Below are positions 4,914 to 34,788 of a DNA stretch of 64,000 nucleotides, piece after piece. This stretch comes from Prorocentrum cordatum. Its lineage: Eukaryota > Sar > Dinophyceae > Prorocentrales > Prorocentraceae. The position numbers and the translations under genes were made by a program. Positions within the stretch are counted from its first letter, which is position 1. Every line of letters begins with the position of its first letter. Where the stretch lies: NCBI GenBank assembly GCA_963575745.1, contig CAUYUJ010011558.1, forward strand, positions 969,780-1,033,779, given 5' to 3'. Below the pieces are notes generated by a model. The model did no database searches. It was not told the DNA's origin and saw nothing but the letters and a program-made list of their open reading frames with translations.

Positions 4914-4969
<56 letters not shown>

Positions 4970-5045
4970 CGACGAGGGCGACGAGGGCGACGAGGGCGAC
5001 GGACGGCGACGACGACGACCAGGACGAGGTCGACGACGAGGACGA
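4720..5045 (+). repeat. GAC/ACG trinucleotide array
   Basis: Starts directly after exon 3 and includes an uninterrupted (GAC)n run near 4915-4965. It reads as poly-Asp, poly-Thr/Arg or, on the other strand, poly-Val/Ser. No codon-like constraint is seen. Confidence 0.9.
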
Positions 5046-7140
5046 TTCTACAGGCTGACGCCACATCCGCCGACCCCCTGTGGTGGACGCCTTCACGGCG
5101 GCGGTATGTGGTTGCATTAGTAGGGTGTTTTGGACTACTCGTGGTTGCGGGGTCGTGTTCGAAAAGCACGAAACTCACGAAACTTCATAATTCCCGCAGC
5201 CCTTGCAGAGGCGGATAGGGGTGAGGGGCTGTTTCGAGAAGGAGTCCCCGCGGCAAGGGCACATCAGTGGCGCGCAGGAGACGGAACACCTGACGAGGGG
5301 AGTGAAACTCGGTTTCACGGTGCGCATGTGTCAAGCGTATCAGTGCAGCGGCACGTGCAAGAAAAAACTACCGAAGCCGGCTTTCCCCGTGAGGCTTGAC
5401 GACAATGTCGCGCGCGACGAACAGAAGGGCCCCCTGAAGAAGGGCACCCTGAAGTGCAAGACGTGCAAATAATGCGCATTCGAGCGCCCGTTCTGCGGTT
5501 CGTCGAAGTAGGGCCAGGGTGGGCGAGCGAAAGGGGGAGCGAAGCTGATCAGGAGGAGGAAGTTGAAAAGAAGGAAGCGCAAGAGGAGGCGGAGGAGGAA
5601 GAGGAGGAACAGGGGCAGGAGGGGTAGAGGGAGGCAGGGAACGAGGCGGAGGAGGACGAAGAAGACTGGTGGGGGACGAAGAGTGAGGATCCAAGTTTGG
5701 GGCCCTAACTGGGGCCGTCGTGGGCTTCGCCGACACCCACGGAACGCATGTGTGCACCCTGGATATGGAGATCTTGCGCGGGTTTCCTGACCGCGCAGTC
5801 ATTCATAGTATTCGGACTATCCCGGCCTGGTTGCGCGTCAGAGTCTCGGGGATGTTTCGCGGGTTTTTGTTCGGAGCGCTCTCGGCGGACGAAAAGGGGG
5901 GGGCAGTGCCAGAGTCCTGACGGAAAACTCTGTGGGATCATTGTATTTGCCGCGGCTGACATTCGCAGTGTTCGCCGTGGACGCATGATTATCGAATGGC
6001 CCTCGGTCCATCCCGCCACCACGCCTAGCTTGCGGGTCTGAGGCCAGTGGGGTAGTTGCGTTCGCCGTGGGCACATGATCATCGTATGGGTTTCGGTCCA
6101 TCCCGCCACCGTGCCTGGCTCGTGGGTCTGAGGCCAGCGGGATAGTTGATGGGGTCTCGTCGGAGGTTTCTCGGGGGGGGGACTTGGAGGCATCCCGCCA
6201 CCGTGCCTGGGTTGTGGGGCTGAGACCAATCGGGTGGTTGACGGGTCTCCTGGGAGGCGCTTCGGGGGCGTCCCGGAGGCTGTGGGTTTTCTGGGGGGGC
6301 CCTGTCGGAGTTCCTTGGGGGCTTTTTGGTTGGCTTACAACGGGGGGCTGCTCAGGCCCACTTCTATAGGAGCTTCCACAAGAGGGGCGCCCCGAGCAGT
6401 TGAGTAGATTTTGACGTCGCGTGGCTACGACTACCCGACATACCCGTTAAGTTGGTCCGATTGCGTTCGTTCGCGCCGCGTGCCAGTTGCCAAGAGCACG
6501 TTCGTGTCCTCATCCCCCCTCCTCTACCCTCTCCATCCCCCCCGATGTTTACTGTACTTTCCCTGCGGGTTTTCCCTAGTTATCCTCTTTCACTTCCTTT
6601 GCCCTTCCATTTCCTCCTCTGCCCGCTTCTACCCTTACTCGTTGTCGCTATCCGCAAGTTCCTCCTAGTCTCGTTCCTTCTTCACGCCCTTTCGAACAAC
6701 TATCGTCAGTTTCGTTGTCCTCTTGCGCCCCCTCTTATTTGCGCCCTCTTCTCGCATCCGCCCCCACTCTTCCGCCTTCCCCGCGCGCCCGTTTTTATAT
6801 TCGCATCAGATTCCTCATTGATTTGTTTTGCACGTTCCCCCCTCTGCCCACGGTCGCCATTTAGGGCCTCCTGTTGCTCCTCGTTTGTTCGTTGCGTTGT
6901 GCCTCCGTTTCCTCGTTTTCCCTCCACCCTTCCACTTCTCTCGTGCTTCCGTTTGGAAACTCTTGGGGTTTTCTTTGGGGCAGTTTGGGGCCTTCTTGGA
7001 TTTTGTTGAGGAGGTCTTTTGATGCCATTTTGGCGTCCGAAGGTGGGCAATTACCAGAAATCCAACGGACCCCGTTGATACCTCGCCCCCCCCCGCCAGA
7101 CCCAAACGAGGGAATAGGGGGAGCCCCTCCCCGAACAAAA
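5046..7140. other. Intron sequence; about 100-bp repeat unit in three copies
   Basis: A purine-rich GAG/GGA tract lies at 5545-5650. Between 5963 and 6245 a unit containing CATCCCGCCACCRYGCCT and GGTCTGAGGCCAGYGGG occurs three times at about 100-bp spacing. A pyrimidine-rich tract is at 6500-6800. No gene is recognised. Confidence 0.5.
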
Positions 7141-8900
7141 GGTGCGTTTATAGTGTTGCTTGCAATTTCCGGTGCCCGTAATGAGTGTACATCTACAGTG
7201 ATTTGTCGATTCCGGTGTCCCTAGTGTAGATCTGAATTGGTGTTTGCCGCTTCCAGTGTCCTTAGTGTAGATGTACATTGTCGTTTGGCCTTTTCCTGTT
7301 TGAACCAGCGGTTATCTACATCGGCGCCGTCGGCGCGCGTGTGAATTGGATTTCCGTAGGGCGCGTCCCCAACATCTATATTTGCATTTGGCCGGTGTAG
7401 ATTGATTTGGGGCCCCCAGATCTACAGTATAGATTGAACGCTTCCGTTTTGCGAACTCTACAGGAAGGTGGGCTTAACGTAGATCGTTGTCCGGTTCCGT
7501 TGTGTAGATCTGCACTGAGTTTTTGCCCATTGATCTACATTGTGTCTTTTGCCCATTGCGGCCCCGAGTGTCGATCTACATTGCGCTGGTGCCAAATTAG
7601 ATTTTCGAGAGCGGACAGGCGATTGCGCCGATGCCGAAATGGATGTCCGAGAGCGGAGAGGGAGAGGGGGAGGAGAGGGGAGGTGAGGAGTGGTAGTGGG
7701 GGAGGGCGGTGAGAACGCTTTAGGGGGGCAGCGGTGGGAGTTTCCGTTCACGATATGGCCCGAGGTGCCCTGACGATGGAGCGAAGAGACGGAGGGGCAT
7801 GGGAGGACGAGGGCGAGGGTGACGAGGCGCACGATGAGGGAGGCCTGGGAGTGGAGGAGGTAGGGGGGAGGGGAAAGAGTGGGCTTGCGTCTGGTACGCA
7901 GCACAGTCACGAGTGCTCCACGATTCGCCTGGACACCCTGAAGCCTCCGAGGGGGCGGAGGATCCATGCATGTCTTGTTTAGGGGCCGAATGGCCCCTAA
8001 ATCGTCATGAAAATGAAGAGCGGGAGGAGGGTGATGTAGGAGGAGGAAAAAGAAATGAAGAGGAGGAGGACAATGAGGAACAGCGGGCATGGAGGACATG
8101 GCGGCGGATGTGGAAGCAAACTACGTGGCGGATAAGGAAGAACAGGAGGTGTAGATCGAGGTCCAGGCGGAGGCGGAACATGAGGAGGAGAAGAAGCGGC
8201 AAACGGGACGTGGCGGGCGGAGGTGCGTGGGCGGACATGGAGTTTGGGATCGGCGAAAATGCGCGGGCGGAGGTTCGCATTCGAACCGTAGCGGGGCTTC
8301 AGGACGGCTTCGGCGATATCTCGCGAAGGATCCAAGACGGTTTCATGAAGTAGAATGCAATCATATGCATAACCACGCAAACCGTTCACGTGCTTCGCCG
8401 ACCCCCAACACCCAGGCAGCCCGAGCAGGCCAAACCCCAGGCGCGGCTGAACAAATAAACCTTAGCGTGCGGGGCGGGGCGCCCCTGGAACCCCTTGGGC
8501 GTTCCTGCAGAAGCAGCCCCCCGCAGTCACCAAACTTCTTGGGGCAACCTGGGGGCGTCTTGGGGCCGAAGGCTCGAAATGTCCGTTCGGGTTCCCCCTC
8601 TGGGGCCGTCCTGGGGACCTCCTGGGCCGTCTTAGAAGTTTTCTTGGGCCGTTTTGGGGCCCTCCTGGGCCGTCTCAGAGCCCTGTTGGGGGCCAACTGG
8701 GCCGTTTCCGGGCGATCTCGGAGGCCTTTTGGGCCATTGTGGTGGCTGTGAAAACCCAAGCGGCGAATGTGTTAAAATCGTACGTTGTCCTAAGAGAATG
8801 GGAAGATGTTTGCTTCTTGGGGCCCTCTTGGGGGGCCTCTTGGTGACCTCTGGGAGTGTCTTGGCGGCATATTGGGAAAACGCGCCAGTGGATCTCCCTG
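7141..8900. other. Intron sequence with repeated GTAGAT/ATCTAC words
   Basis: Between about 7180 and 7580 the words GTAGATC, ATCTACA or their complements occur about ten times at irregular spacing. 7650-8200 is purine-rich (GGAGGA). Near 8520-8760, GGGGCCnTCnTGGGCCGT-like words repeat, as they do at 60520-60740. No coding signal is seen. Confidence 0.4.
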
Positions 8901-18595: not shown

Positions 18596-19937
18596 CCCCC
18601 AACCCCCGCGGGGGGGGGGGGCTGGGAACTTGCCGCGGCCGTGGGCTCGAGGGCCCGCCGGCAGTTTTGGCGCTGAGCCGCGCGCGCCGCGGCGCGGCGC
18701 ATGCAGAGCCTGCCCGGGGGGTGCTGGTTGCGCCTCCCCAGCCGGGCCTGGCCCGGCACCCGGCGGTCGGCCAGGCGCCGCCGATCCCTGCAGTAGCTCT
18801 GGGCGCGTGGCAAGACCCCGGCGACGCCGCCGAGCGGGGGAGGCTGCCGCGGGGGCGGCAGGCGGCGGCAAGGGCGAAGGCGCGCCCGGGCAAGGCGGCG
18901 GCACCGCGAGGCCGACCTCCCCGCGAGGTCCGGCTGGCGCGCCCGCCCAGCGGGGGGGCAGCAGCGGCGGTACCAGCGGAGCCGGCGCGCGAGGGGTGGG
19001 CTCCGGGGCGGGCTCCAGCAACCCCGCCGAGGCGTCGACGCCAGGGGGGCGGCTCCTGCAGGAGAGCCCCGAGCCGGCCGACCCACCGCGGCAGGAGCCC
19101 AAGCGCCGCTTCCGGCCAGCCCCGCGGCCAGGCTGGACGGGGCTCGGGGGCGACGCGGGAGCTTGGGAGCCCGCCGGCGAGGCGCCGGAGCAGCCGCGGC
19201 CGCTCGGGGTCGGCGAGAGCGCCGCGGGAGCGGCGCCTGAGGCGCGCGCGGCGGCGCTGCCGCAGCCGCAGCCGCAGCCGCGGCCGCTTGCCCCGCGGGC
19301 ACGACCGGCGCCGCTCCCCCGCGCGGCCGGGCGGGCCCTCTCGTGGCCTGCCGCGCACAGCGCCCCCCCCCCTGGGCGGGCGCGCCGGCCAGCCCCGCAG
19401 GCGGGGCCGCCGACGGCAAGGCCGGCAGCGGGGCCAGCAGCGGAGCCAGCGGCGGACCGCGCGGAGCCGCCGCGCTCCGAGGAAGAGGACGAGGAGGACT
19501 GCGGCAGCTATGCTCCTACGAGACGGACGAGGAGGTCGACTCAGCGGGCGCGCAGGCAGCCACGGTACCGGCTGCCCCTCCAGCGACGCTGAGCACAGCA
19601 GCGCCTCGGGCGACCGAGCCGGGCGCAGCAGCGGCGGCAGCGGCAGCGGCGGCAGCTGCCGAGCCGGGCGGCGGCGGCGACGCCCGCCGCGCGACACCCG
19701 CCACCGCGGACCCGCTGGCACCGGCCCCGGAGGCCCCGGGGCGACGGACGCGGCCGGCCCAGCCCGGCCCGCGGGCGACGGCGCCGAGCCCGCCCGGCCC
19801 TGCAGCGCCGGCAGCGGCCTGCCCGGCGGGCCCAGCGGCGACGGACCAGGGCGGGGCGCCAAGCGCGGAGCTGCATGGTGACCCTGGCGCTTCAGCGGGC
19901 GGGGCTCGTGGCAACGAGCCTCGCGGAGGGCCAGCTC
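18596..19937 (+). pseudogene. Split retrogene, 5' part
   Basis: GC-rich and open in several frames. The best coding-like stretches are EPKRRFRPAPRPGWTGLGG and SEEEDEEDCGSY (frame of 18630), then after a frame change near 19512 ETDEEVDSAGAQAATVPAAP (frame of 19343), which stays open to the insertion point. The protein is unknown: low-complexity, Ala/Pro-rich with acidic patches. The copy is decayed and interrupted by the 14-kb element after GCTC at 19934-19937. Confidence 0.45.
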
Positions 19938-20225
19938 TTTGGTGATGGCGTTGACATATGAGATTTATGTCAGATGAAGTCACTTATAAGTTACTTCAAT
20001 TATATATGAAGTTATTTGTAAGTAACTCGAAATCACTTGTAGTGAGATATGTTAAGATCCTGCAACTACCATCCACATCTAACTTAAGTCATTAACATAT
20101 ATACTTAAATCACATGTAGAACATATGTTACTTGTGTGCACCCAATTGCCATACTTATAAGTTACTTGTAGTTATACTTATAAATAAGATAAGTTTAAGT
20201 CCGATAAGTCTGCTTTTTCGTCTGC
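19938..20225 (+). repeat. Left terminal region of the element
   Basis: The outer inverted repeat is at 19938-19960. Then comes about 240 bp of AT-rich DNA, sharply unlike its GC-rich flanks, with ACTTATAAGTTACTT at 19982 and 20154 and many ATAAGT/AAGTTA variants. The inner inverted repeat is at 20197-20221. Repeated subterminal words are typical of transposase-binding regions in DNA transposons. Confidence 0.75.
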
Positions 20226-20405
20226 TTTTTGAAAAGGGGGTCGGACACCGAAAAACGCGCAGGTTTTCTTCAGCACAGTGTTTCGCCAGGCGCCAGGCGA
20301 CCGAGAAGGCCGTTCATCACCGAGCTCAACCCGCGCAGCCTGGGGGGTAGGAGAGAGGGGGCGGGAATGGCGGGGGGGGGATCGGGAGGGGATGCCATGC
20401 GCATT

Positions 20406-20922
20406 GGCGGCACACCGCCCGCACTTCTCATCGCGGCGCGTTCTGATGTGATTCGTTTCGGCGGCCCACCGCCCACGTCTTGCAAATTCTGAGCAGTTTT
20501 ATCGCATTGGCGGCGCACCGCCCATCGCTATGTTTTGCCCGCGCATTGCAATTTGTACGTTTTGCACATGTTGATTGAAGTTTCGTCGCGTTGGCGGTGC
20601 ACCGCCCACGTTCCCTTGATTGCGCGAATCGTTTCTTCACGCATCGGCGGAGCACCGCCCACGCAGCACGTTTCATCCGAATTCGTCATCGAATTTGGCG
20701 GTACACCGCCCACGTCCCCGTGATTGCGCGATGCGTTTCTTTCGCGTTGGCGGTGCACCGCCCGCGGCGCATGCTTCGCCCGAGTTTGTCATCGCATTTG
20801 GCGGCCCACCGCCCACGTCACCTTGATTGCGCGAGGTGTTTCTGCATTCGTTGGCGGTGCACCGCCTTCGGCGCACGTTTCATCATATACCGTTTGATTG
20901 GTCGCATTGGCGGCGCACCGCC
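20406..20922. promoter_or_regulatory. Palindrome array 1, upstream of orf1 (10 copies)
   Basis: Copies of GGCGGNNCACCGCC start at 20406, 20460, 20509, 20593, 20646, 20697, 20749, 20800, 20853 and 20909, mostly 49-56 bp apart. Spacers also repeat (CACGTCNCCNTGATTGCGCGA). The last ends 158 bp before the orf1 ATG. The role is unknown; a protein-binding site or an RNA hairpin is possible. Confidence 0.8.
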
Positions 20923-21079
20923 CAGGAGGGGGGAGGAGGGGAGAGGGGGGAGGAGAGGATAGCAGAAGGAAGACGTGAAGGGCCATGCCATTTCCCTTCG
21001 CCACAATACGCTGCCCCTGTCCCACCGAGCGCTTCTGGAGGGGCCGCGGGGCGGGCGCCCCCCGACGCGCCGCGGCGCG

Positions 21080-23086
21080 ATGGAGCGCGCCCAGGCTGCC
21101 CTGGGCGAGGCAGCCGCGGCGCTTGCAGCGGCGAGCGGGCCTTCCAGGGGCGCTGCAGAGCAGCTGCACTTCGGGAAGGTGCGCGCGCTCATCGAAGGCC
21201 AGAGGCGAGGCTCGGGTCAAAGATCCCGCACGGGCGAGAGGCCATCCGTTCCCCCTTTCGAGGAGGTCCCCGCCTCCGTTCGGCGGAACGCCGCCCGCTC
21301 CCCCCTCCTCCCCGCCGTCTAACATTCCCCCGTCGTTTTGCAGGTGGACGGCCACGGAGAAAGGGCAGCTGCTGACCCAGCTCGGGCAGACGGGGTTCAG
21401 TCACGATTTGGTCGGCGCCGCGACCGAGTGGCTCTGCGGGAGGCGCACGAAGGCCAAAGGGCAAAGTTACGAGTGCTTCGTGGAGTTGCTTACTGCCTCC
21501 ACGTGGCACGTGCTGCTGAGCCCAACCGAGTCGTTCGCTTCGAAATTTGTCATGTTGATGCGCCACTTGGAGCGCCTCGGGCTCCGGAACCCTTCCGAGC
21601 CGACGTTTGGCATGCTAGCCGCGTTCATGTTCCTGGCGTGCCAGCGATCAGGCATCGAGAAGAATTCGCCGACTCCGCAGCTCTTGGACGTGTACTTGCA
21701 GTTGGTGAAGACCACGTGGCGTTCCCCTGCCTACACAGCTGCTCGAGGCAAGGCGACCGAGTTTGTCGGCGCGCTCTCCCCCTCGGCGGCGCTGTTCCAG
21801 CAGGAGAGGCCGACGCTGTACGAGCAGGCGTTCGCCTCGGAGGGGCCCGTGCAGCCGACAATTGGGCTTCTCGAGACGCAGATCCTCGGGAAGCTCATCA
21901 GCTTGCGCGGCAACAGGAACGCAGCGCTCGGCGCCCAGGCAACGCCGCAGCGGGCGGCGTTGCCGCCGATCGCCTTCGCGCCTCTGCCGCCGCCTTCTCC
22001 GATGCAAAGCGTTGCGGTTGCAGCCGCGACGATTGCCGCGACGCCTCCCTTGGGAGCCGCGACGCCAGCGGCGTTGCCGTTGGGGGTGATCCCAACGCAC
22101 AACACCCGCGGCGGGTGGCCGAACCCAGCGGCGGCCGCCCTCGTCTCGCAGCGCGGGCCGACGACTCCCACTCCAGCAGCTCCCGCGGGCAAGCCTGCCG
22201 CGATGTCGGGAGCGGCGCCTGCGGCCGCGGCCTCAAAGTTGGGTGGTGGCGCCAAGGTCAAGGCATCGGCCGTTGACGTCATGGTGCTGAGCTCGAGCGA
22301 GTCCGAGGTGGACGCGAAGGGGGCGCCGCAGAAGAAGGCAAAGGTTTTTGGACGGTAACCTGGGCCCGCCTCCGCGGCCTCCGCGATTCACGGGGGCGCG
22401 CCTCTGCCCAAGGCAGCGGCGCGCCCTCTGCGGGGCGTCGCAGGCGCGGCGATTGGTTATTGCCACTTGCCGCTGTCAAGGTGGATCCGACACTGCCGCT
22501 GGCGAAGCTGCCTGCCGACGCTGCCCTGGTTCTCCTCCAAGCGGCGGGGCAACGTACTTCCTCTGGCTGGAAAGCGGAGAAGGGCGAGAAGAAGCGGAGG
22601 AAGTCCGACGCAGTGGCGGCCTTGGCGAAGACAAAGGCTTCAGATGGCACGGCGAAGCCATCGGCGGCGAAGGCAAAGGCAAAGGCAAAAGCCGAGGCAA
22701 CACCGAAGAAGATTGCGAAGGCGAAGGCGGCAGCATGCAAGCTGAAAGCACCGCGGTATGACGACGAGACCACTCGCAGCCAGATTCTCTTCAGGAGCGG
22801 GCGCAGCGGGCCAGGCGGCACCAAGAGCAAGAAGTACAGGAACGGCAAGGAGAAGGACACTTTTGGGTCCCATCTCCTCCAATCGGCGTGGCCACGGGGC
22901 TCGATGCGCGGCGGCGGAGCGCGTTGTTGCGGCCGCGCGTGGCCTCGCTCCAATCATATGCGCAAAGAGACCCCGCGGGCCACTTTGCGTTTATGACGGT
23001 TTTCATCTGCCACTCAGGAGGCCGCCATCGCCTGGGCCAAGGCGCTGGTGCAGAGCGAGCTGGAGGCTCGCAAGGGCGAGTTCTGA
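21080..23086 (+). CDS. orf1: hypothetical protein with SUMO-interaction-like motif, four exons
   Basis: Proposed exons are 21080-21180, 21344-22343, 22481-about 22855 and 23018-23086 (about 514 aa). Exon 2 is clearly coding (KGQLLTQLGQTGFSHDLVG, FVELLTASTWHVLLSPTES) and ends with VMVLSSSESEV, hydrophobic residues then an acidic Ser/Glu stretch as in SUMO-interaction motifs. Intron 2 (22344-22480) is GT-AG, phase 0, with AAG|GT at both ends. Exon 3 is Lys/Ala-rich and ends RSQILFRSGRSGPGG, a motif I associate with dinoflagellate multicopy proteins. Exon 4 gives EAAIAWAKALVQSELEARK. Intron 1 needs a GC donor to keep frame, and intron 3 a GA donor, so those edges are uncertain. No palindrome lies inside the unit. 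Function unknown. Confidence 0.55.
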
Positions 23087-23270
23087 GGCGACCTGCTTCG
23101 GTGGCGCGATGCATGACTCTCAGTCGGATTTGCCGCGGGCGGCGCGTGGGGCGCGCAGCCTGCGTTCAGAAAACAAGGAACTCGGATCGAAATCGGATCG
23201 TAATCTCATCGGGCCTTGCTTGTCCTTGCGCTGCTCAGGCGGTTCTTCGTATTTATTGGAAGGTTTGCCT

Positions 23271-23311
23271 GGCGGTGCACCGCCTCCATCTGTTGTCGGC
23301 GGTGTTCCGCC
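23271..23311. promoter_or_regulatory. Palindrome array 2, upstream of orf2 (2 copies)
   Basis: GGCGGTGCACCGCC at 23271-23284 and GGCGGTGTTCCGCC at 23298-23311, ending 176 bp before the orf2 ATG. Confidence 0.75.
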
Positions 23312-23486
23312 TTCGCTGGTTCCATTGCCATGGGCGTTCTCATTTCTCTGACCGCTGCCTCGCCCTTGCCCGCCTCCCTCCGCCGCTCCCCCCGCGCCTT
23401 TTCAATTCAAGCAGCCCTCCCCGCGGGTCCCGCGGCGCCCCTCCCCGCGCCGCTGCCGCCAGCGGCCGCGGGCGCTTCGCGGGCGC

Positions 23487-24693
23487 ATGGCGAGCGAGGG
23501 CGCGGCCAGCAGCGCCATGGACAACTCCGCGGAGGCGCTGGGAATTCAGAAAACGCCTGCTCAGCCCGAAGCGTCCGCTTGGGCAGTGCAGGCTGATTTC
23601 CTGGATTCCTGTTGAGGTGCACACGGCGGCTTCAGATGCGAGCCAGTCGCTTTTCGAGCAGGTCGCCGAAGCCTTGAACCTCTTCGAGATGTTCGCCCAG
23701 GCTCGAGGGAAACGGATCGAGCGCGCCCGACGCCCATGCGGCCCCGCCCCCGTTCGCCCGCGTTGGCCTGGATGCAGGCGGCGGCGGGGCAGGGCCCAGA
23801 AGCGACGGTGCTCTCGGCGTTTACCTTGCCTTGCGCAGGAGGCAGGCATGGATGACATCATCGCCGATCCCGCGCCGCCAGGCTGGCAGACGGCGGAGTG
23901 CCCTGGCAGCAGCAGCAGCGACCCCTCGCCAGAGGCGAAGCAAGGACCGACGCTCATCCCCGTCCACAATCAGGGCGCGGCGCCGAAGTCGCCGCCACGT
24001 CGCACCCGAGACGCTGGCGGCACGTGGCGGGCGGAGCAGCAGCAGCAGCAGCAGGAGGTGCAGCAGCAGCAGCAGCAGCCGCCGTCGGAGAAGCCTCAGC
24101 CGCCGTGGCGCCAGGCGCAACCGCCAGCAGGCGCGCCCAACGTGGGCGCCTCAGGCGCGCCCAACGTGGGCGCCTTCGTCGCCAAGGTACCCGAAGTGCC
24201 GAAAGCGTCTGCGGCGCCAGAGGACGTGGTGCAGGCGTACAAGTTCTTGCGCTCGCTGCTGAGCGAGAGCGCGCCGATCGCCTGGAACTCCAAGCGCGTC
24301 CAGGAGCCACTGGAACTGCTGCAGCGCTACGTCGGCATCTGGGGTCGCGCCAGCAGGGGGCCGCCCGCGCCCATGCACGGTGGCCCGCAATTCTGGCGCG
24401 GCCAGACGTGGCGCAAGAGCGGGAAGCGCTGGGGCAACCGTGGTGGTTCAGGCCCCAAGTCGGAGTGGTACGCCTCCAAATACGGCCGCGCGCCACCGCG
24501 CCGCTCGCTCCAGGACAGCGGCGGCGGCCCGTACCTCGCGCCGACGCCGCCGCCGCCACCGCCGCCACCGCCGCCCCCGCGGCCGACGGCCGCGAGTTCG
24601 GCGCCCGCGGCAAAGGCAGCGGCCGTGCGGCCGCCTCCACTGCCCCTGACGGTCAAGGCGATGCCTTCCAAGAACCGCGGGCTGTACCTCTGA
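23487..24693 (+). CDS. orf2: Gln/Pro-rich hypothetical protein, three exons
   Basis: Exon 1 23487-23585 (MASEGAASSAMDNSAEALG), exon 2 23617-23700 (VHTAASDASQSLFEQVAEAL), exon 3 23839-24693 with TGA at the end; 345 aa in all. Intron 2 is GC-AG (CAG|GC...CAG|GA, 138 nt, phase 0). Intron 1 would be only 31 nt (GT-AG, phase 0) and removes an in-frame stop. Exon 3 has two Gln tracts, a duplicated GAPNVGA, a globular-looking segment (VVQAYKFLRSLLSESAPIAW), Arg/Gly/Trp-rich sequence (QFWRGQTWRKSGKRWGNRGG) that could bind nucleic acid, and a run of 11 Pro. No family is recognised. The minus-strand shadow frame is long because of GC bias. Confidence 0.55.
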
Positions 24694-24964
24694 GACTCGC
24701 GGGCCGCGGGCTTTGACAACCCCCTCGGAGGTCAGACGCCGACTGAAACATCCATGAGGGGCGGGGGGACGTGAGAGCGGAGAGGTGATGGACGGTGAGC
24801 CAGGAGACAAATGGAAAGAGAGCGGAGTGGAAGTTTCAGTCGGCATCTGATTTTCCGATTTTCAGGTGCCGTTCTTCGCCGCTGGCGGCTGTCGCGGTAG
24901 GCGTGCGCCGCGCTCGCGGGACCGTTCGCGAATATCCTTTTGCGCGCGTCGCCAGCAAAAAATC

Positions 24965-25085
24965 GGCGGGGCACCGCCTGTCATGGGCTCTCGTCGGCGG
25001 CACTCCGCCTAACTTCGGCGGTGCACCGCCCGCGCGCGCTGGACTCCCAGCACTCCCCCCCATTCAGCTTCGGCGGTGTACCGCC
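24965..25085. promoter_or_regulatory. Palindrome array 3, upstream of orf3 (4 copies)
   Basis: Copies start at 24965, 24996, 25017 and 25072 (GGCGGGGCACCGCC, GGCGGCACTCCGCC, GGCGGTGCACCGCC, GGCGGTGTACCGCC). The last ends 235 bp before the orf3 ATG. Confidence 0.75.
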
Positions 25086-25319
25086 TGTGCGTGCTCCACG
25101 CTCCCTGCACGCCTCCTCCATTCCTCTTATGATGTTTTCCGCAGCCGCAGGCTCCAGGCTGCGCTTGCGCCGCGCTTTTCCCGCGCGCGCCTTCGCGGGC
25201 GCCCATCCGCCGTCCTCGGCGCGCTCTCGCAGCCTTCGCGGCCGCCTCCCTTCGCGCCGTCTTTGGCGCGCTCTCGATCGCGGGCCTCCAGTGCGCCATC
25301 GAGCTCTTCTCTTCGCGAG

Positions 25320-26060
25320 ATGCCCATGATCAGCGTCTTCGGGTGCACGTGCCCGTTGTCGGGGACCTGCTCGAAACGCGGGAGTTTCTTCAAGGGCGCG
25401 TCGCGAGATGAGGCCCTGTCGAGGCTCAAGACGCACTTGGTGAAGTCGAGCTACCACCTCCTCGAGGATGTCGACGCGGATCTTCAACTGGCCATCGCCG
25501 AGGTCGGCGCGCCCAAACGATTGCTTGCCCACGTCTTTCGGCGAACCTCGGTGGCGCTCGGCTCACCGAGGTCCGAGCGCCTTCGAGGTTCGACGAATGG
25601 CGCGAGCGATCGCGGGGCGCGCTTGAAGGTCGAGGAGTGGACTGAGGACACGGACGAGTGGGAGCGCTGGCAGAAGGCCAACGACGAGCAGTGGTGCAAG
25701 AACAACCGCCGCCGTGGCGCTCGCAGTGCGCCGTACCAGCCTCCCGAGCAGGTCGCTCCACTCAGCCAGAGTGCAGTGGCGGCGGCCTTCCCGAAGGGCA
25801 GCGGCAAGGGCGGTCCGCTTCAGCTCAACATGAGCGGAGCGAGCTCGCCCGTCAGCGCCAACATCGCGCCCGAGGCCACCGTGCAGCTGAACTCAGCGCA
25901 GGCGCAGGTGATCCTCGACAGCGTCACGAGGGCGAGGATGTGCTCGGCGGCCTGCCTGGCAGTGGCGGAGCGGTCGGCCGTGGCGTTCCGCGCCGAGCAG
26001 GCGGCCCTCGCCGACCTGCAGGAGACGCTGGCCAGCTGGCTCTCCAACAACGCGTCGTGA
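25320..26060 (+). CDS. orf3: putative Cys/His zinc-binding protein
   Basis: 246 aa from ATG 25320 (a second Met is two codons on) to TGA 26058-26060. The N-terminus, MPMISVFGCTCPLSGTCSKR, carries Cys9, Cys11 and Cys17, followed by His39 and His46 in SRLKTHLVKSSYHLLED: spacing C-x1-C-x5-C-x21-H-x6-H, a plausible single zinc site. The middle is acidic and Trp-rich (EEWTEDTDEWERWQKANDEQ), then basic (NNRRRGARSAP). The C-terminus is an Ala-rich helix (VTRARMCSAACLAVAERSAV). Apparently a single exon. The frame is open upstream, but that stretch contains palindrome array 3 and is low-complexity. DNA or RNA binding would fit; this is inference. Confidence 0.6.
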   Translation: MPMISVFGCTCPLSGTCSKRGSFFKGASRDEALSRLKTHLVKSSYHLLEDVDADLQLAIAEVGAPKRLLAHVFRRTSVALGSPRSERLRGSTNGASDRGARLKVEEWTEDTDEWERWQKANDEQWCKNNRRRGARSAPYQPPEQVAPLSQSAVAAAFPKGSGKGGPLQLNMSGASSPVSANIAPEATVQLNSAQAQVILDSVTRARMCSAACLAVAERSAVAFRAEQAALADLQETLASWLSNNAS

Positions 26061-26505
26061 GGCCACGTTGGGGTCCTCCCGTCGCGGCGGCGTCGGCCGC
26101 CCCCTTCGGCCGCCTCGTCGGCCGCCCTCTTCGGCCGCCTCGTCGGCCTAGCAGCCCGCCGCGCCGCCCGCGCAGGGCTTGCATCGGCCGCGGAGGCCGC
26201 CTTGGGCCCCGCGGGGGTTCGACGCCGACTGACAGATCGGGGAGGGGCACGGTGAGGGAGGTGCGGAGGGAAGGGGCATGGAGAGGAGCATGGGAGGGGG
26301 GTGCGGCATGGGGAGGGGCATGAGAATCGGGGCGGGGCGGAAAGGCTGTCGGTCGGCTTCTGACCCCCGCAACTCTTCGGCGCATCCGCGCGGTCGCTCG
26401 CGCGCGCGCGGGCCGTGCGCGCACTCTTATCTTTGGCGGGTCCGCCATTCTTTCTTGGAAAACTGCGATCATCATCATCAACATCATCGTCATCAACATC
26501 ACCAC

Positions 26506-26541
<36 letters not shown>

Positions 26542-26827
26542 GAGTAGCATTGCCATTCTCATCCTCATCATTCCGATCACCCCCATAGGAGGAGAAGGAA
26601 GAGGAGGAGTGGTGGCGAGGAGAGGGCGAGGAAGAGGAGGAGGGGAATGAGGAGGAGGAGGAGGAGGAGGAAGGGGGGGGGAGGAGTCCTTCCCCACCAT
26701 TTTTCATCATCATTCTCACCATCATCATTCCGATCACCACCATCGGAGGAGGAGGGGGAGGAGGAGGAGGAGGAGCAGCAGGAGGAGGAGTGGTGAGGAA
26801 AGAGAATGAGGATGAGGAGGAGGAGAG
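26061..26827. other. orf3-orf4 intergenic, simple repeats
   Basis: Tandem GTCGGCCGCC(C/T)T near 26090-26155, a (CAT)n run at 26468-26540 and purine-rich GGA/GAG tracts at 26584-26690 and 26745-26827. No gene is seen. Confidence 0.7.
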
Positions 26828-27151
26828 GGAACGATCTCGGCGCGGCTGCGATGAGGGCTGGTTTCCTGCGCCGCGTATCGCGGCGTATCCTGGCGTATCC
26901 TGGCGTATCCTGGCGTATCCTGGCGTATCGCGGCGTATCGCGCGACGGCGCGACGCGATGCGCCAGGATACGCCAAGATACGCCGCGATACGCCAGGATA
27001 CGCCAGGATACGCCCGTATCCTGCCGTATCCTGGCGTATCCTGGCGTATCGCGGGGTGCCGCGGAGCGCGATACGCCAGGATACGCCCGGATACGCCGCG
27101 ATACGCGGCGCAGGAACGCAGCCCTCAGCGCAGCCGCGCCGAGCTCGTTCC
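26828..27151. repeat. 324-bp near-perfect hairpin with (GGCGTATCCT)n stem
   Basis: The left arm from GGAACGATCTCGGCGCGGCT is matched by the reverse complement of the right arm ending AGCCGCGCCGAGCTCGTTCC with only a few mismatches over about 60 bp. The interior is ten-base GGCGTATCCT units on the left and AGGATACGCC units on the right, with a smaller inverted block in the middle. A foldback MITE or extruding cruciform inside the giant element. Confidence 0.8.
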
Positions 27152-27353
27152 GATTCGTCGGAATCGCCATCACCATCACCATCGCCATCTCGCCATCTCA
27201 CCTTCACCACCACATCACCATCGCCACCTCGCCATCACCACCTCACCATCACCAGAAATCATCGTCAGCACCTCGCCACCACCATCATCGTCACCACCAG
27301 CATCATCGTCGTCACCGCCATCAGCATCACAACCTTACCACCACGTAGTCGTC
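27152..27353. repeat. CATCACC-type simple repeat before array 4
   Basis: CACCATCACCATCGCCATC-like sequence. No gene is seen. Confidence 0.7.
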
Positions 27354-27884
27354 GGCGGCGCACCGCCCATCGGTTGGACTTGTCCGCTGTGCTCCGCCCT
27401 TTGTTTTGTTTGACGTTTCCGTCGGCGGTGCACCGCCCATTGCCTGGTTGCACAATTTCGTCGGCGGCGCACCGCCCATGGATCGTCGTTGTCGGCGGCG
27501 CACCGCCCATTGTATGATTAGACAATTTCGTCGGCGGTGCACCGCCCATCGGTTGGACTTGTCGGCGGCGCACCGCCCAATTTATGATTGGGCAATCTCG
27601 TCGGCGGTGCACCGCCAATCGGTCGTCGTTGTCGGCGGCGCAGCGCGCATTGTATGGTTGCACAATTTCGTCGGCGGCGCACCGCCCTTCGATCGTCGTT
27701 GTCGGCGGCACACCGCCCATTGCATGGTTAGACAAGTTCGTCGGCGGCGCACCGCCCATCGATCCTCGTCGTCGGCGGCGCACCGCCCATTGTTTGCATG
27801 TATATTCGTGAGCGCCACGCCGATCATTTGTTTTCCTTGTCGCGGCTGTCGCATCGCGCCGCGCGTTTTCGGCGGCGCACCGCC
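27354..27884. promoter_or_regulatory. Palindrome array 4, upstream of orf4 (13 copies, 70-bp dimer)
   Basis: Starts: 27354, 27424, 27463, 27494, 27533, 27564, 27603, 27634 (degenerate), 27673, 27704, 27743, 27774 and 27871. From 27424 to 27774 the spacing alternates 39, 31, 39, 31 without exception. Spacers also alternate: an AT-rich one of the type TTGNATGGTTAGACAATTTC and a short one of the type CATCGATCGTCGTTGTC. Confidence 0.9.
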
Positions 27885-28070
27885 TGTTGTTCCAATTGTG
27901 TAGGCTGTGTTGCGCAGCCTTGTCCACTTCTCCAGAACCAACCTGCTCTCTCATCCGCCTTGCCCCTTGTTCCCTTTCATCCTCGCGCCGTGTTCTCGAC
28001 AGCCGTTTTGTGCTGGCGCGCGGCCGCGGGGGCCGCGCGCGCGGCCGCGGGGGCCGCGGCGCCGCGGGCC

Positions 28071-30484
28071 ACGGCGGCCGCCGAGGAGGAGTCGCCCGCG
28101 CCCCCCTTCTTGCACGAGGGCGTCAAGTCACCCGCGCCGCCCGAAGACAGCTCGCAGGAAGAAGGCTCGAGGCCGCAGGCAGCAGACTCGCTCAAGAGCG
28201 AGCCGCAGGAAGCAGGCTCGAGGCCGCAGGAGCTTGGTTCTGTGAAGGCCGAGGAAGGCGACACCTCGGCGGAGGCCAGTGCAGCTCCGCCTTGGCCCAA
28301 GGCCTCCTCGCCTGCGACTCCGCAGGAGCCCCCGCAGCGCGTGCCTGAGGAGGTCGCGGCCGCTGCGAAACCAAAGGCGGGGAAGGCGGGGCGGCCTCTC
28401 CTCAGGCGCCCCGCCGCCGTGCCGCCCGCCAAGCAGCCCCCGTCGCAGCGCTCGCTTTCTCAGTTCTTGACCGCGAAGAAGGGCGGCGGCGCGCCGCCTG
28501 CGAAGGCAAAGGCGAGCGCGGAGCCCAAGGCAAAGGCCAAACAGAAAGCGAAGAAGAAGCCAGCAGCGGCGGCACCTTCGACGGCGGAGGACGCAGCAGC
28601 AGGGGCGGACGAGGCAGAGCCACAGCAGCAGGCCCAGACGCAGCACGACAAGAAGTCGGTTGCAGCCTCGCAAGCACCGCCGGCAGCGGAGGAGGATGCA
28701 GAGCCACAGCAGCAGCGTCAGGATGCAGCGCCGACGGAGGCAGAGGCGGCAGCAGAGGAGCCGCAGGCCGCGCCCTCAGACACGTTCGAGGCCGCCACGG
28801 ACGAAGCAAAAGATGACTACGGCCGCTTCACGACGGGCTACGACCCACCCTGTCCAGGCCCGACGTGCGCCAAGTGCGGTCGGGATGCGGAGAGCGTCCG
28901 CTTCAGGCTCGCCCAGAAGAGCGCCAACACGTGGTGGTGTGGGAGCTGCAACAGCAAGAGTTCGATGGTGCAGCGCTGCTATGCGCACTGGCCACCGCGC
29001 TCGTTCGCTCTCATGCGCAAGGCGGACCAGCAGGCGTTCTGGCGCTCGATGGACGACCCTTCCATTGAGAACAACGCTCAGTTCGAAGAGGAGCTGGTGA
29101 GGGTCCTCAGCGTCTCGAGGAAGGAACGCCTCACGGAGACCAAGGGCGGGGATTGGAAGCCCTTGTCCGTCTGGGCCCAGGAGGGGTACGACGCGGACGC
29201 CGTCCGTGCCAACAACGACGTGAGGTACAATTCCGACTTGAAGCAGGATTGTTACCGCATCCGCATCGAGGGCAGCAGGCAGGAGAACATCGAAGAGACA
29301 GTGAGGCAGGAGCTCCGCCAGAACAGGAAGCCGCCGAGGCCATCCCCACCGAAGCATGAGAGAGCCGTGGAGCCACTCCCGCAAAAGACGCACCGCTCGC
29401 CGAGCGGTGGCTACGAGGGCCCCACAGGCGCTGGTCGCCGTTCGACGAGTCGGAGCGGCGACAGCGACTGTTCGCAGAACCGCCAGCTGAAGCGGGGCCA
29501 CTCCAGCAGCGGCGACGGCGCGGACCGCTTCCCCAGCCGCGGCCGCAAGCGCAGCAGCCGCGGCCGCAGGGCGGACAGCCGCCAGAAGCACCGCTCTTCC
29601 AGAGGTTCCCGCAGAGCCGACGCGAAGGGCCGCCGCTCGAGGAGCCGCAGGGCGCACAGCAAGAAGGAGAAGGCCCGCTCGAGGAGCCGCAGGGCGCACA
29701 GCAAGAAGGACAAGGCCCGCTCGAGGAGCCGCAGGGCGCACAGCAAGAAGGACAGCCGCAAGACGGGTCGCTCCCAGTCTCGCGAGAAGCAGCGCTCGAG
29801 GAGCCGCAACGACCACGGCAAGAAAGGGAGGGACTCGCGCAGTCGCATCAGGAGGGAACGCAGCGAGCAGAAGCGTGTCCAGAAGGCCATCAAGGACCGC
29901 AAGGCGTTGGCGATGAAGACGCTGGAAAAGACGGGGTCCTGGGACGTGCAGCTCGCATCGCTCCTCGACGACGAGGACTGCTCCAGGGTGCCGACCTGGG
30001 CGGTGAAGAACGCGAAGGACAGCCACAAGGATCTCTCGAAGCTCAGGGAGGCCGCGAAGACCGCGCTCGAGGACCCCAGGGCGAGCTTGCCGTACGAGGC
30101 GAAGGCCTTGGAGGCAGCCCTCGCCGACGCAAAGACCGCTGTCGGTGGCCTGCGTTCGGCCATCGAGCACGCGAGCTGCTCAACGGCCTTTTCATCCATC
30201 GTGGATGGCGGTGCTCCGCCGATCGACCGCTCGACTGCCGATCGATCGATCGAAGATTTTGCTGATCGACCGCTCGACCCATCGAGGATTTCGCCGATCG
30301 ACCGCCGACCGATCGCGTTCGGATCGGTCGACCGCCGATCGATCGATCGACCGCCGATCGAGCGCCGTTCGATCGCGATCGACCGCCGATCGATCGCGTT
30401 CGACCGCCGATCGATCGCGTTTGCGTCCCGATCATCCTTCTACAGGCCAAGAAGTACAGCAAGAAGAACACCTCGAGGGACTGA
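28071..30484 (+). CDS. orf4: Arg/Ser-repeat protein with Cys4/5 cluster, two exons
   Basis: The open frame runs from 27798, but that start would put a palindrome inside the protein. In-frame codon ACG 28071 in the context GCCACGGCGGCC sits 187 bp after the array, where other units have ATG, so a mutated or non-AUG start is suggested. From there about 722 aa: acidic/Pro-rich and Ala/Lys-rich N-terminal half; Cys261, Cys266, Cys269, Cys290 and Cys293 (CPGPTCAKC...WWCGSC) followed by RCYAHWPPRSFALMRKADQQ, resembling a motif I recall in dinoflagellate proteins; then Arg/Ser-rich sequence at about 482-600 with three RSRRAHSKK units, like splicing-factor RS domains; then a helical region. Intron 30201-30445 (GT-AG, phase 0) leads to a last exon, AKKYSKKNTSRD, TGA at 30482-30484. 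Confidence 0.6.
30201..30445 (+). repeat. Intron of orf4: one palindrome plus GATCGACCGCC repeats
   Basis: GGCGGTGCTCCGCC at 30207-30220, the only palindrome found within a unit, followed by tandem CGATCGATCGACCGCC-like units to about 30420. The reading frame stays open by chance but is low-complexity. Confidence 0.65.
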
Positions 30485-30671
30485 GCTCGGCGGCGGCTGC
30501 CCTGCTCAGTCCCCAGCCGCTGCGACGCGCGCTGGGGCGCGCTGGAGGCGCGCTGGAAGTCTGCCCCCGCCCGCGCAGACTTCCCTCGCTTAGACAAAAA
30601 CTATATTCCTCCGTGGTCCGCCTCCCTTTCCTCGTGCACGGCGTCCTTGTAGCCATGCTCCTCTTATTTCT

Positions 30672-30941
30672 GGCGGTGCACCGCCCATGGGCAGCATCCG
30701 CCGACGGCGGTAGTTTGCCTCCTGTCCACACCCCGCACTCTTCTGGCGGTACACCGCCCGTTGCCAGCCATCCGCCGACGGCGGTACTCCGCCTCCTGTC
30801 CATGCCCCGCACTCTTCTGGCGGTGCACCGCCCGTGTGCAGCCATCCGTCGTCGGCGGTGCTCCGCTTCCTGTCCATGCTCAGGAGTCTTCTGGCGGTGC
30901 ACCGCCTGTTGTCAGCCATCCGTCGTCGGCGGTACCCCGCC
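30672..30941. promoter_or_regulatory. Palindrome array 5, upstream of orf5 (8 copies, 74-bp dimer)
   Basis: Starts 30672, 30706 (degenerate), 30745, 30780, 30819, 30854, 30893 and 30928: spacing 34, 39, 35, 39, 35, 39, 35. Perfect GGCGGTRCACCGCC copies alternate with variants such as GGCGGTACTCCGCC. Confidence 0.9.
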
Positions 30942-31025
30942 ATCCGTCATCCGTTGTCACCCATCCGTCATCCGTTGTCAACCTTTTCCACCGCCTCACC
31001 CACCCTACTTCAACGGCTCGAAGGG

Positions 31026-31207
31026 CGCCCGCGGCGGCGCGCCAGGCGGGGGCGGCGCCATGGCCGAGCGATGGCCCCCTGCCGAGCGTCAGAGGCTGCA
31101 GGGGGCAGCGCTTCTGCGCCCGCGGCGGCGCGCCAGGCGGGGGCGGCGCCATGGCCGAGCGATGGCCTCCTGGCAAGCGTCAGAGGCTGCAGGAGGCAGC
31201 GCTTCTG
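31026..31207 (+). repeat. 91-bp tandem duplication of the orf5 first exon
   Basis: Units 31026-31116 and 31117-31207 differ at a handful of bases and each contains GCGCCATGGCCGAGCGATGG. ATG 31060 (copy 1) is out of frame with exon 2; ATG 31151 (copy 2) is in frame. Confidence 0.85.
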
Positions 31208-33633
31208 CGGGGCGTATCGCGGGCGGCGCTGGACAGGTGCACGGAATCCAAAAATCATAATGCGCAATGTGTTTGAAGGATGTTTTGTTTGGTCGGCTTT
31301 TTCTTTTCAAAATGCCCAACCGATCTCCACCCGCCTTCCCCGCGCAGGGTGGCTCGCGTCCTGCTGCAGGACGACGACGAGCACGCGGCGGCGGCGACCG
31401 TGGGCGCCGACGTGGCTCGCGCGGTGGCGCCGCTTCTGGATGTTATCGAATTGCCGCGCCGAGACGGTGGCCCAGCGTTCAGGTGGACTGTATGTTTGCC
31501 CGACAAGATCGTCCCCAAGCTGGCCCACGCGGCGGGGCCTTGGAGTGATCGGTTCTGGGCGGCGATGCGGGTGTTTCCTTCGTCGCCATCGCAACCGTGG
31601 CGGATGCTGCTCTACCACGACGACGTGGTCGTCGGCGCGCAGCTCAAAGCTGCAAACCGCAGGACGTCCATTGTTGTGTACATTAGTTTTTTGGAGCTGG
31701 GCACATACCTTCAAGAAGAGGGCGCCTGGCTCCCGCTGGGAGTCCTTCGGTCAGAGGACAAGAAGGATATCACCGCAGCGGGCGTGGTGAGGGCCATCCT
31801 GCGGCGCCTCTTCCTCGGGCCAGGAGGCGGCGGTTTCGACGTCGGCGCGTCTCGGTTGCATTTCAAGTGCCACAGGCTGATCATGGACGAAAGCGCGGGC
31901 AAGGACACCTTCTCGTACAAGGGCTCCAGCGGTTGGCGGCCCTGCTGCAACTGCAAGAACGTCGTGCTCGACCAGGGGACTGGCACCCTCAGCCGTTGGG
32001 ACCCGTCTGGTTACCTGGTGGGCATCGCTTGCGTCGACGCCTCGAGGTTCGACCCGATGACTGCGGAGGCGTCGGGGGCGGGCAATGCGCGGCCGACGCT
32101 CGGCGAGTCCAGAGAGTTCACGAACGGACTTCGCGAACTCCCTGGAATTCGCGAGCGGAGTTCGCTCGGCCGGCTCCCGCCAAGGAGTTCGCGAAGGGGT
32201 ACGACGAACTCGTGGAACTTCAACGCACGGCGAGTGCAGTGGCCTTCCAGAATCTCCAATCCGCGTACGGCATCACTGTGAACGAGTTCTCGTTGATGGC
32301 CGACGTCGAACTCCGACGCGTTTGCTCGCTGGACATGTACACGCGCGACCCGATGCACATCATCCTGGCGAGCGGAGGCACGTTCCAGGTGGAGGTGTTC
32401 TGCCTGCACAAAGCAGTGGCGCGCGTGATTCCAGACGTGTGGGATCGGTGGCGAACCGATTTCCAGCGCTGGGCTCCAGGCCGCGGCGGAGGGAAAGCTC
32501 CCGTGCATCTCTTCTCCCCTGCCAGGAAGAAAGCCTGCGTCGAGGCAGGGCATTTCGTCGGCTCCGCGTCGGACTGCCTCGCCGTCCTGCCGTTCCTCAG
32601 GAACTGGCTGCACGTGGATTTCTTGCCGCATCACGCGCCGTTCCTGCCCCAGGCGCGGTCCTTTGAGGCCATGTATGCCGTCATGGAACTGTACCTGGCG
32701 GCGAAACGCGGCGGCTGCCCAGACACGTTCGATGTTGATTTCAAGCGCCATGTCGGGTTGGCGCTCAGGAAACACGTGCGGGCCTACACGGACGCGTGGA
32801 TCGTGCCTAAGCATCATTATCTTTGGCACGCAGCTGTGCAGGCGGCGGAGGATGGGTTGATGCTCGACTGTTTCGTGCTCGAGCGAAAACACAAGCTCAT
32901 CAAGGACACCGCGGAGCACTACGACCGCTTGGGCGGCATGGACAAGGATGTGATCACCCAAGTTGTGGCTACGTACTTGCACGAGTCCTCGGCCGCGCCG
33001 CGCCAGTCGCACAAATGGTGGCCGACCCCTGAGCTCGACGGGATCATCGGGCAGCGCGGTTGGGGCCAAATGGGCTTTGGTGCACGCGCGAGCCTCCACG
33101 GGGGGCGCGCCTGCGGGGGCGCCTCTCGGGGCAACGCCGAGGCTCGCACGTGCACCAGGGCCTATCCAGGCACGGCGCCATCACTTGTCGTCGAGCTGCT
33201 GTCGGCGGCCTCGTCTACGGCAGCGGGGACGTGTGGCTCGAGGGCGACGCCGCGTTCCACGTCCACTGCGTGGCGGTGGCCGCGGGGCGCTCCTACCTCA
33301 TCGTGGAGCCGCTGGACCTGGCGTCGCGGCCTGCGCCTGGGGAGTCCGCGTGGCGGCCACGAGGAGGACCGAGCTGTGCAAGGAGGAGGGAGGGGGAGGA
33401 GGGGAGGGAGGGGGAGGAGGAGGAACAGGGGGACGAGGAGGAGGGGAGGAGGAGGGGGACGAGGAAGGAGAGGAGGAGGAGGAGGAGGAGGAGGAGGGGG
33501 ACGAGGAGGATGGGATGGCCCACTACGCCGCCGCCCCATAGGATGCGGCGCGCTGGCTGCTGAGGACGCCCCGCGGGCGCCTGCGGCGTACACCCGCCGA
33601 GCCGAGGACGGCTCGGTCCGCGCGCTGGTGTAA
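31151..33633 (+). CDS. orf5: transposase-like protein, at least two exons, frame breaks downstream
   Basis: Exon 1 31151-31236 (MAERWPPGKRQRLQEAALLR), intron 31237-31347 (GT-AG, phase 2), exon 2 from 31348 (VARVLLQDDDEH...). Exon 2 has DESAGKDTFSYKGSSGWRP then CCNCKNVV, YLVGIACVDASRFDPMT, and, after a frame change near 32090-32200, DPMHIILASGGTFQVEVF, PKHHYLWHAAVQ and DCFVLERKHKLIKD. The order D...CxxC...DPMH...His-rich...E resembles plant- and animal-type DDE transposases of the Tnp2/CMC kind and a protein family expanded in dinoflagellates (recollection, not tested). Another frame change precedes GGLVYGSGDVWLEGDAAFHV (near 33170), and a GAG tract at 33376-33520 separates it from YTRRAEDGSVRALV, TAA 33631-33633. 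Either unrecognised short introns or inactivating indels explain the breaks. Confidence 0.5.
33376..33520 (+). repeat. GAG/GGA tract near the orf5 3' end
   Basis: Purine-only repeat that reads as poly-Glu, poly-Arg or poly-Gly. One frame (EEGDEEDGMAHYAAAP) stops at TAG 33539-33541; another stays open to 33633. Confidence 0.85.
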
Positions 33634-33646
33634 AACGCGCGCGCGC

Positions 33647-33728
33647 GGCGGTGCACCGCCTGGCGGTGGGCCGCCTGTTGTAAAAAATCACGTTCGCGCG
33701 GCGGTAGCCCGCCTGGCGGCATCCCGCC
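33647..33728. promoter_or_regulatory. Palindrome array 6, after orf5 (4 copies)
   Basis: Starts 33647, 33662, 33700 and 33715: two close pairs 15 bp apart, 53 bp pair to pair. Begins 14 bp after the orf5 stop. Confidence 0.8.
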
Positions 33729-33841
33729 TGGGGAAAAGGAGGGACGGAGAGGAGGGGAACGGGAGCGGGGCCCCGCAGGCTGCACGGATCGATGGCGACG
33801 CCGACGCGTTTTTGAAAGCGCCCCCGCCCCCCATTTTCCAT

Positions 33842-33991
33842 ACGAAAAAGCAGACTTATCGGACTTATCAATTAGATATAAGTTACATATAAGTAAGATA
33901 TAAGTAAACTAGTTTTGATGAAGATGGTAGATATAAGTAAGAAGAAGTAACATACATGCAGCATGTAACATACGTCAACGCCATCACCAAA
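33842..33991 (-). repeat. Right terminal region of the element
   Basis: The inner inverted repeat at 33842-33866 is an exact 25-bp complement of 20197-20221. Then come AT-rich ATATAAGTAA words and the outer inverted repeat ending CCATCACCAAA at 33991. It is shorter than the left terminal region (150 against 288 bp). Confidence 0.75.
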
Positions 33992-34788
33992 GCTCCTCAT
34001 CCGCTGGCGCGGGCCGGGGGAGGCCAAGGCCCGGGGCCTGTGGGCCCCTGCCGTGGCGACGCCGCCGCGACCATTGCTGACCGGCCGGGCCCTCCGGCGA
34101 CGGTGGGCCTGGATGCGGGCGACTTCCCCGTCGAGGAGGAGTACGACGCGCTGGGCGACCGCCCTGCTGCTCGAGCGGGCAGCCACGCCGCCGCCGGCGA
34201 CCCGGCGGACGGCGCTGCACACGCCGGACCATGGGCCGACGCCGTCGACGGAGTCGACGGCGGCCTCGCGGTAGACACGCCGCCGCGCGCGGGCGGCGCC
34301 GCTGCGGCAGGCCGCGCGACCGCGCGAGGCAGGGGCGCCAGCAGCGACGGGGAGACCGGCTGCGGGAGCTCGGCGCCGCGCCGCCGCCGGCGCGGGCGCG
34401 GCCGCTGCGGCGGCCGGGGTGGCGACTTGACAGCCCTGGCGGCGTCCGGCGGCGAGGCGGCGGGCGGGGCTGCGCGGGCGGCGGAACGGCCCGCGGGGCC
34501 AGCTGGCGCCGGCGGTGGCCCGGCTGCTGGAGGCGCGGCGGCCCGCGGGGCCACCGCGGCGGGCGCGCCCGGCAGCGACGGTTCTCCGGCTGCCGGCGGG
34601 GCGCCCCGGACGCCACCGCCGCACGCGCCGCGCGCCTCTGGGCAGAGGCTGGCCTGGCCAACCTCACGCGCGCGGACCAGGCGGCCGGATTGCGAGCGCG
34701 CGCGGACGCGTGGCGCAAGGTCCCGGGAGCAGCGCAGGGGGCGGCGCTCTTGCTCGGCGCGTGCGCCCCGCAAGCCAGGGCGCGCTGA
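33992..34788 (+). pseudogene. Split retrogene, 3' part
   Basis: Begins with GCTC (33992-33995), the copy of the left flank. The frame continuing from the 5' part reads DAAATIADRPGPPATVGLDA then GDFPVEEEYDALGD. After a frame change the last part reads DATAARAARLWAEAGLANL...QAAGLRARADAWRKVPG with TGA 34786-34788. Protein family unknown. Orientation agrees with the leader on the left and the A-tail on the right. Confidence 0.5.

Follow-up and report, generated by a model that had tools for sequence, protein, structure and literature searches.

What is the 14-kb, multi-gene segment with matched ends that lies in a stretch of 64,000 nucleotides from the dinoflagellate Prorocentrum cordatum (assembly GCA_963575745.1, contig CAUYUJ010011558.1, positions 969,780-1,033,779, forward strand), and how might it move? 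The whole of this stretch is called the window below, and positions refer to it. The segment is a real, repeated and dispersed DNA transposon copy. With a probability of about 0.88, we consider it to represent a new lineage of CMCT transposons that has a conserved five-gene core and works in a CACTA-like manner. Its limits are as follows.

19937..33992, + strand: whole transposon, 14,056 bp
19937..19960, + strand: left terminal inverted repeat (TIR), 24 bp
33969..33992, - strand: right TIR, 24 bp, one mismatch against the left TIR
19935..19936, no strand: target duplication CT, left copy, 2 bp
33993..33994, no strand: target duplication CT, right copy, 2 bp
20196..20221, + strand: inner inverted pair, exact, 26 bp, left member
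33842..33867, - strand: inner inverted pair, right member

Copies were sought in one assembly of this one species (4.13 Gb, 21,875 contigs). The terminal 18-mer TTTGGTGATGGCGTTGAC has 128 matches genome-wide (66 forward and 62 reverse), and its reversed control has 0; within the window, the TIR core of the element does not occur again. Of these, 100 places were listed; 76 of them pair up, giving at least 38 inverted pairs, and the other 24 stand alone. These pairs are 13.3-16.9 kb long, 30 of the 38 (among the matches listed) measuring 14.0-14.25 kb. Eleven whole copies, i.e., the one in the window and ten that were fetched, are 13.3-14.3 kb long and share 96.2-99.8% pairwise identity, gaps excluded. 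Most copies have different flanks, with exact breaks at the element ends. An earlier sequence-only reading had proposed one mobile unit, to be refuted if no other locus had these ends in inverted pairs; other P. cordatum loci with the same ends, mostly in different flanks, bear the proposal out. In several copies the ends are intact though single genes are broken, and a codon-position test among copies gave no signal of selection.

Flanks were read for 38 copies. The base C precedes TTTGG in all 38, and its right counterpart G is present in 37; because it is constant across copies, this base was assigned to the TIR, which begins CTTTGG and is one base longer than the 23-bp, one-mismatch ends first seen at 19938-19960 and 33969-33991. 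Directly outside the TIR, 33 of the 38 copies have the same 2 bp on both flanks (an N accounts for one of the five exceptions), compared with 155 of 1,406 pairings (11%) when flanks of different copies were swapped; only 2 of 38 match over 3 bp. The sequence GCTC does stand on both sides, at 19934-19937 and 33992-33995, as the sequence-only reading had it, but it is ruled out as a 4-bp target duplication: one base belongs to the TIR and 2 bp are duplicated, and most of the copies in which 4-bp duplications had been expected have 2 bp as well. In the 37 readable copies, the left-hand target dinucleotide starts with a pyrimidine in 32 and ends with a purine in 27, and the base before it is C in 25. 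The second inverted pair is present and exact as described, at 26 rather than 25 bp; its 24-bp core is unaltered at both ends in 7 of the 11 whole copies.

In a search for empty sites, the two flanks of each copy were joined around one copy of the duplication, and for 15 of the 38 copies the product aligned across the junction; within 20 bp on each side, 3 of these alignments have no difference, 5 have one and 7 have two to ten. Of the eight best alignments, six are to an adjacent repeat unit in the copy's own flank; those for the copies on contigs C3883 and C16723 are to a different locus (for C16723, L102 over 167 bp at 95.8%). Tandem repeats are thus common as targets, so that empty sites are easy to find but less specific. 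One repeat of the window, at 62956-63286, matches the joined flanks of the C780 copy (361 aligned positions, 87.5%) and thus is a target elsewhere. On contig C16400 (G000:C16400:723682-758329), two copies lie about 6 kb apart with a common right flank and different left flanks, and one of them lacks a matching duplication, as after recombination between copies.

Which gene moves the element? The candidate is orf5, which is read as five exons.

31151..31236, + strand: orf5 exon 1; intron GT-AG
31348..32068, + strand: orf5 exon 2, with D120, D209, C228 and C231; intron GC-AG
32185..33053, + strand: orf5 exon 3, with D324, H327, H479, H484 and E502; intron GC-AG, introner-like
33170..33360, + strand: orf5 exon 4; intron GA-AG, the least certain junction
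33542..33633, + strand: orf5 exon 5, including the stop codon

The CMCT transposase signature, as defined in PMC12730594, is present in orf5 and five relatives; its C(3)C part occurs in 3 of 9 proteins. The predicted structure of an orf5 relative has a RAG1/Transib-like fold, and identity with Transib, ProtoRAG (BbRAGL) or RAG1 is only 7-10%. A Pfam scan found no match to a CACTA transposase, nor to a RAG2-type partner in the element. Signature, predicted fold and homology agree with the earlier proposal of orf5 as the mobilizing enzyme; catalysis by orf5 and the autonomy and recent activity of the element are putative. The assignment to CMCT uses the signature, the predicted fold of the relative and the duplication size: CMCT members duplicate 2 to 5 bp, and 2 bp were found in the 33 copies mentioned above and in all three copies read of a second family, family A. 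Most, though not all, CMCT lineages have 5'-CA..TG-3' ends; those found here are CTTTGG and, in family A, CTTGG.

Some features of orf5 are worth recording in their own right. A 91-bp tandem duplication (31025-31209, 95% matches) comprises the start of exon 1 and an upstream copy. Dinoflagellate introners are inverted-end elements enriched in P. cordatum introns (PMC10666404). Because two orf5 introns, 33054-33169 (with GGGCTTTGGTGCACGCGCGAGCCTC / GAGGCTCGCACGTGCACCAGGGCC) and 32069-32184, hold introner-like inverted arms, introners may have invaded the transposase gene. Introners share inverted ends with the element but are short and intron-forming, and CTTTGG ends are absent from the 35 short inverted pairs that were listed for the window under a mismatch limit that missed intron 33054-33169. 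The arms of that intron contain the end-like sequence TTTGGTGCACG; the likeness does not extend further, and a link between introners and the transposon ends was rejected.

Upstream of orf5, four further genes lie on the same strand.

21080..21204, + strand: orf1 exon 1, MERAQAALG..., positioned manually after NCBI model P0015; intron GC-AG
21344..22358, + strand: orf1 main exon
23611..24693, + strand: orf2, Gln-rich; 5' limit uncertain
25368..26060, + strand: orf3, main open part; Cys/His-rich start just upstream
28350..30188, + strand: orf4 main exon, CxxC...CxxC, SR-rich; 5' limit uncertain

The five same-strand units recognized at the outset are backed by the copies and by family A, and orf1 and orf4 also by NCBI gene models. 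The orf1 models, which are partial, end near 22345, and the family A homologue suggests further 3' exons at about 22600-22900; relatives of orf1 were found among P. cordatum proteins only. Model P0011 of orf4 has an additional short last exon, here at about 30449-30484. At NCBI, orf4 matches P. cordatum proteins, one of them identical at 613 of 613 residues and encoded on contig C460 (113,362 bp), and a relative in ENA is 50% identical over 36% of the query. None of orf1-orf4 reaches the Pfam cut-off; loose thresholds gave weak names only, all below it (CpXC at 0.094 for orf4, zf-UDP at 0.031 for the relative P0009, and others at 0.16 or above), and the best hit of a sequence-profile search of the PDB was a ribosomal protein (E 0.054). 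Between orf2 and orf3 lies a 119-bp inverted pair with 23-bp arms (24732-24850) that resembles an introner or a miniature inverted-repeat transposable element.

Do these four genes belong to the element in any lasting sense? A genome search with P0008, in which 67 of 3,247 candidates were scored, gave 70 transposase matches, which lie in several further multi-copy families. Three family A copies cease to be homologous at CTTGGATGGCCGACAGAG..., and the same 33 bp recur at their left ends; they are 11,398, 11,234 and 12,153 bp long and have exact 2-bp duplications (CC, TA and AG). The family A end has 15 + 13 matches genome-wide (control 0), forming 11 inverted pairs 11.2-13.7 kb apart and 6 singles, and each pair encloses a transposase match from the P0008 search. 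The one family A copy that was fully read has homologues of orf1-orf5 in the same order on one strand: orf1 at 24% identity (E 1e-10), orf2 at 44% over 39 aa (2e-5), orf3 at 41% over 39 aa (2.5e-4), orf4 at 30% (1e-24) and orf5 at 33% (3e-69). The motif GGPxxWRGQxWR...RWGxRGG of orf2 and the motif CSKR...HLVxSxYH of orf3 are common to both families; orf2 also has an RGG-like patch. In the reciprocal search, orf1, orf3, orf4 and orf5 of family A find the window element at the right genes, and orf2 has no match to it at E 0.01.

A third family, C, was examined over 6 kb upstream of its transposase. This stretch contains matches to family A orf3 (35%, E 2.5e-4) and then orf4 (33%, 1.5e-18), and P0014 also matches it (E 5.5e-5); the window element's own orf3 and orf4 have no match there at E 0.1. 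Neither orf1 nor orf2 was found in it, being beyond the stretch or absent. As to the limits of families B and C, five C copies and two B copies remain homologous over the entire 1.7 kb retrieved; in two others, homology is lost near 800 bp, with no recognizable end there. Control searches at E 0.05 gave no gene match in reversed L101 or L105 or in the window left of the element, and one match to its right (family A orf3, E 0.006). Judged by homology, the accessory genes thus seem to have stayed with the transposase for a long time, and this is the strongest new result. Since their homologues keep their order in the diverged family A, we prefer to speak of core machinery; "accessory proteins" in the sequence-only reading still fits orf1-orf4, and "cargo-carrying" was too strong.

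The spaces between genes and ends are also organized.

19961..20195, no strand: left AT-rich subterminal region with TATAAGT / TTACTT repeats, putative binding sites
33868..33968, no strand: right AT-rich subterminal region with the same TATAAGT / TTACTT repeats
20406..20922, no strand: palindrome array before orf1
26873..27106, no strand: arrays of inverted units with a 10-bp period, in the orf3-orf4 spacer
27354..27884, no strand: palindrome array with a 70-bp period, before orf4
30672..30941, no strand: palindrome array before orf5
33647..33728, no strand: palindromes after orf5

TATAAGT occurs 9 times in 336 subterminal bases, against a mean of 0.2 in 500 composition shuffles. Palindromes with at most two mismatches from GGCGGTGCACCGCC number 40 in the window, 38 of them inside the element (45 of 50 for the looser form GGCGG-N2-6-CCGCC), and each of the five genes is preceded by one group of them (20406-30941). 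Both features had been noticed before any search, and they hold up. Family A, read in the copy on C14813 (L102, L101, L089; element positions 362-8247), has GGCGGATNNCCGCC-type palindromes ahead of orf1, orf3, orf4 and orf5, none being seen between orf1 and orf2 of that copy; the one family C spacer read (L105:1453-2374) has palindromes of the form AGCGAT..ATCGCT. Gapped palindromes are therefore present in gene spacers of all three families: the plan is kept and the sequence changes. The spacer between orf3 and orf4 carries 10-bp units in both orientations, CGTATCCTGG in the window and TGTTATCGGA in family A (copy on C14813, element positions 5445-5791), and this unit length is the helical-turn period.

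How could such an element work? In En/Spm, TNPA binds subterminal repeats, and TNPA and TNPD are both required (PMC2613891). By analogy, orf5, as a RAG1-like DDE transposase, would pair both 24-bp ends, excise the element and join it to a new site, preferably C-YR-G, of which 2 bp would be duplicated. One or more of orf1-orf4 may bind the TATAAGT-type repeats beside the ends and help assemble the complex, the part that TNPA plays for the CACTA transposase TNPD serving as the model. The best candidate for subterminal binding is orf3, with its Cys/His-rich segment; orf4, with its CxxC pairs and SR-rich composition, is another. We infer this division of labor, in which orf5 cuts and one or more of orf1-orf4 bind, from the TNPA/TNPD case, and any roles of the inner inverted pair and the palindromes are likewise putative.

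The alternative that survives best, though we regard it as unlikely, is that orf5 alone moves the element and that orf1-orf4 have no role in transposition, being cargo captured from the host or anti-silencing genes. The Pfam result for these genes suits it, as do the copies that keep their ends despite single broken genes, which would fit help in trans equally well. However, family A, with a transposase only 33% identical, has all four homologues in the same order and orientation, and orf3- and orf4-like genes recur in family C, whereas cargo should vary from one family to another.

Somewhat less probable still is an ordinary CACTA (EnSpm) element of unusual size, in which additional open reading frames (ORFs) accompany a TNPA/TNPD-like pair, as reported from a red alga. 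The CMCT-type DDE signature, TIRs, reiterated subterminal motif, large size and accessory proteins are all shared, and there are precedents: in Chondrus crispus, EnSpm elements that measure 16-20 kb and hold 4-5 ORFs (PMC6431247), and in soybean the CACTA element Tgmt*, of 20.5 kb (PMC2613891). Because of these, the novelty is limited to a variant, and "a new kind of giant transposon" claimed too much for an element with a known signature. Against the ordinary CACTA explanation stand CTT rather than CAC ends in two families, 2-bp rather than 3-bp duplications, the absence of a Pfam match to CACTA transposase and five same-strand genes in conserved order, the Chondrus accessory ORFs being compared by description. 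Within the CMCT clade, fungal Plavaka elements also have short duplications (2 bp in PlavakaA, 2 or 3 bp in PlavakaB), but their ends are TGT (A) or CATCA (B), and a five-gene core is not described for them in the available sections of PMC12730594.

The proposed CMCT lineage also differs from more distant systems. Transib and ProtoRAG make 5-bp duplications and have CAC ends, and Polintons and proviruses duplicate 6 bp; the duplication here is 2 bp. A provirus or Polinton-like element, suggested by size and by several genes between inverted ends, is very improbable given this duplication, the RAG1-like enzyme and a Pfam scan with no polymerase, capsid or retrovirus-type integrase, some small or spliced frames lying outside that scan. 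An assembly or segmental-duplication artifact deserves as little credence: some flanks are common or nearly so (right in C16400 a/b and C13289/C15556, left in C5881/C10890) and C1155 and C3217 sit in one repeat, but the other flanks differ, breaks are exact, empty sites are present, and the 2-bp duplication test (33 of 38 against 11%) refutes it for the family as a whole.

A bolder version of the CMCT reading is tentative, and we hold it somewhat less probable than even: an undescribed, superfamily-level lineage of RAG1-like dinoflagellate elements with a five-part machine, in which orf1-orf4 would be obligatory and the spacer palindromes a conserved device. The five protein parts would then have stayed together, in an unchanged order, while the transposases of different families drifted apart to about 33% identity, and the palindromes would help a multi-gene element to be run or packaged in a genome that lacks ordinary nucleosomes.

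Among the open-licence papers listed in the literature searches, none turned up that works out an autonomous DNA transposon family in P. cordatum or reports an element of this five-gene type from dinoflagellates. A search for introner-mobilizing elements covered 10 kb downstream of end matches plus RepeatModeler repeats (PMC9860276); such elements can escape notice because they have no Pfam match and because 14 kb exceeds that span. Dinoflagellate genomes are huge and repeat-rich, and one family with exact ends and dozens of copies, together with an exact-ended sister family, is now at hand. It ties a RAG1-shaped enzyme, with a predicted fold resembling that of the enzyme that shuffles human antibody genes, to a five-gene cassette, and raises a testable question: what makes a cut-and-paste element retain four partners?
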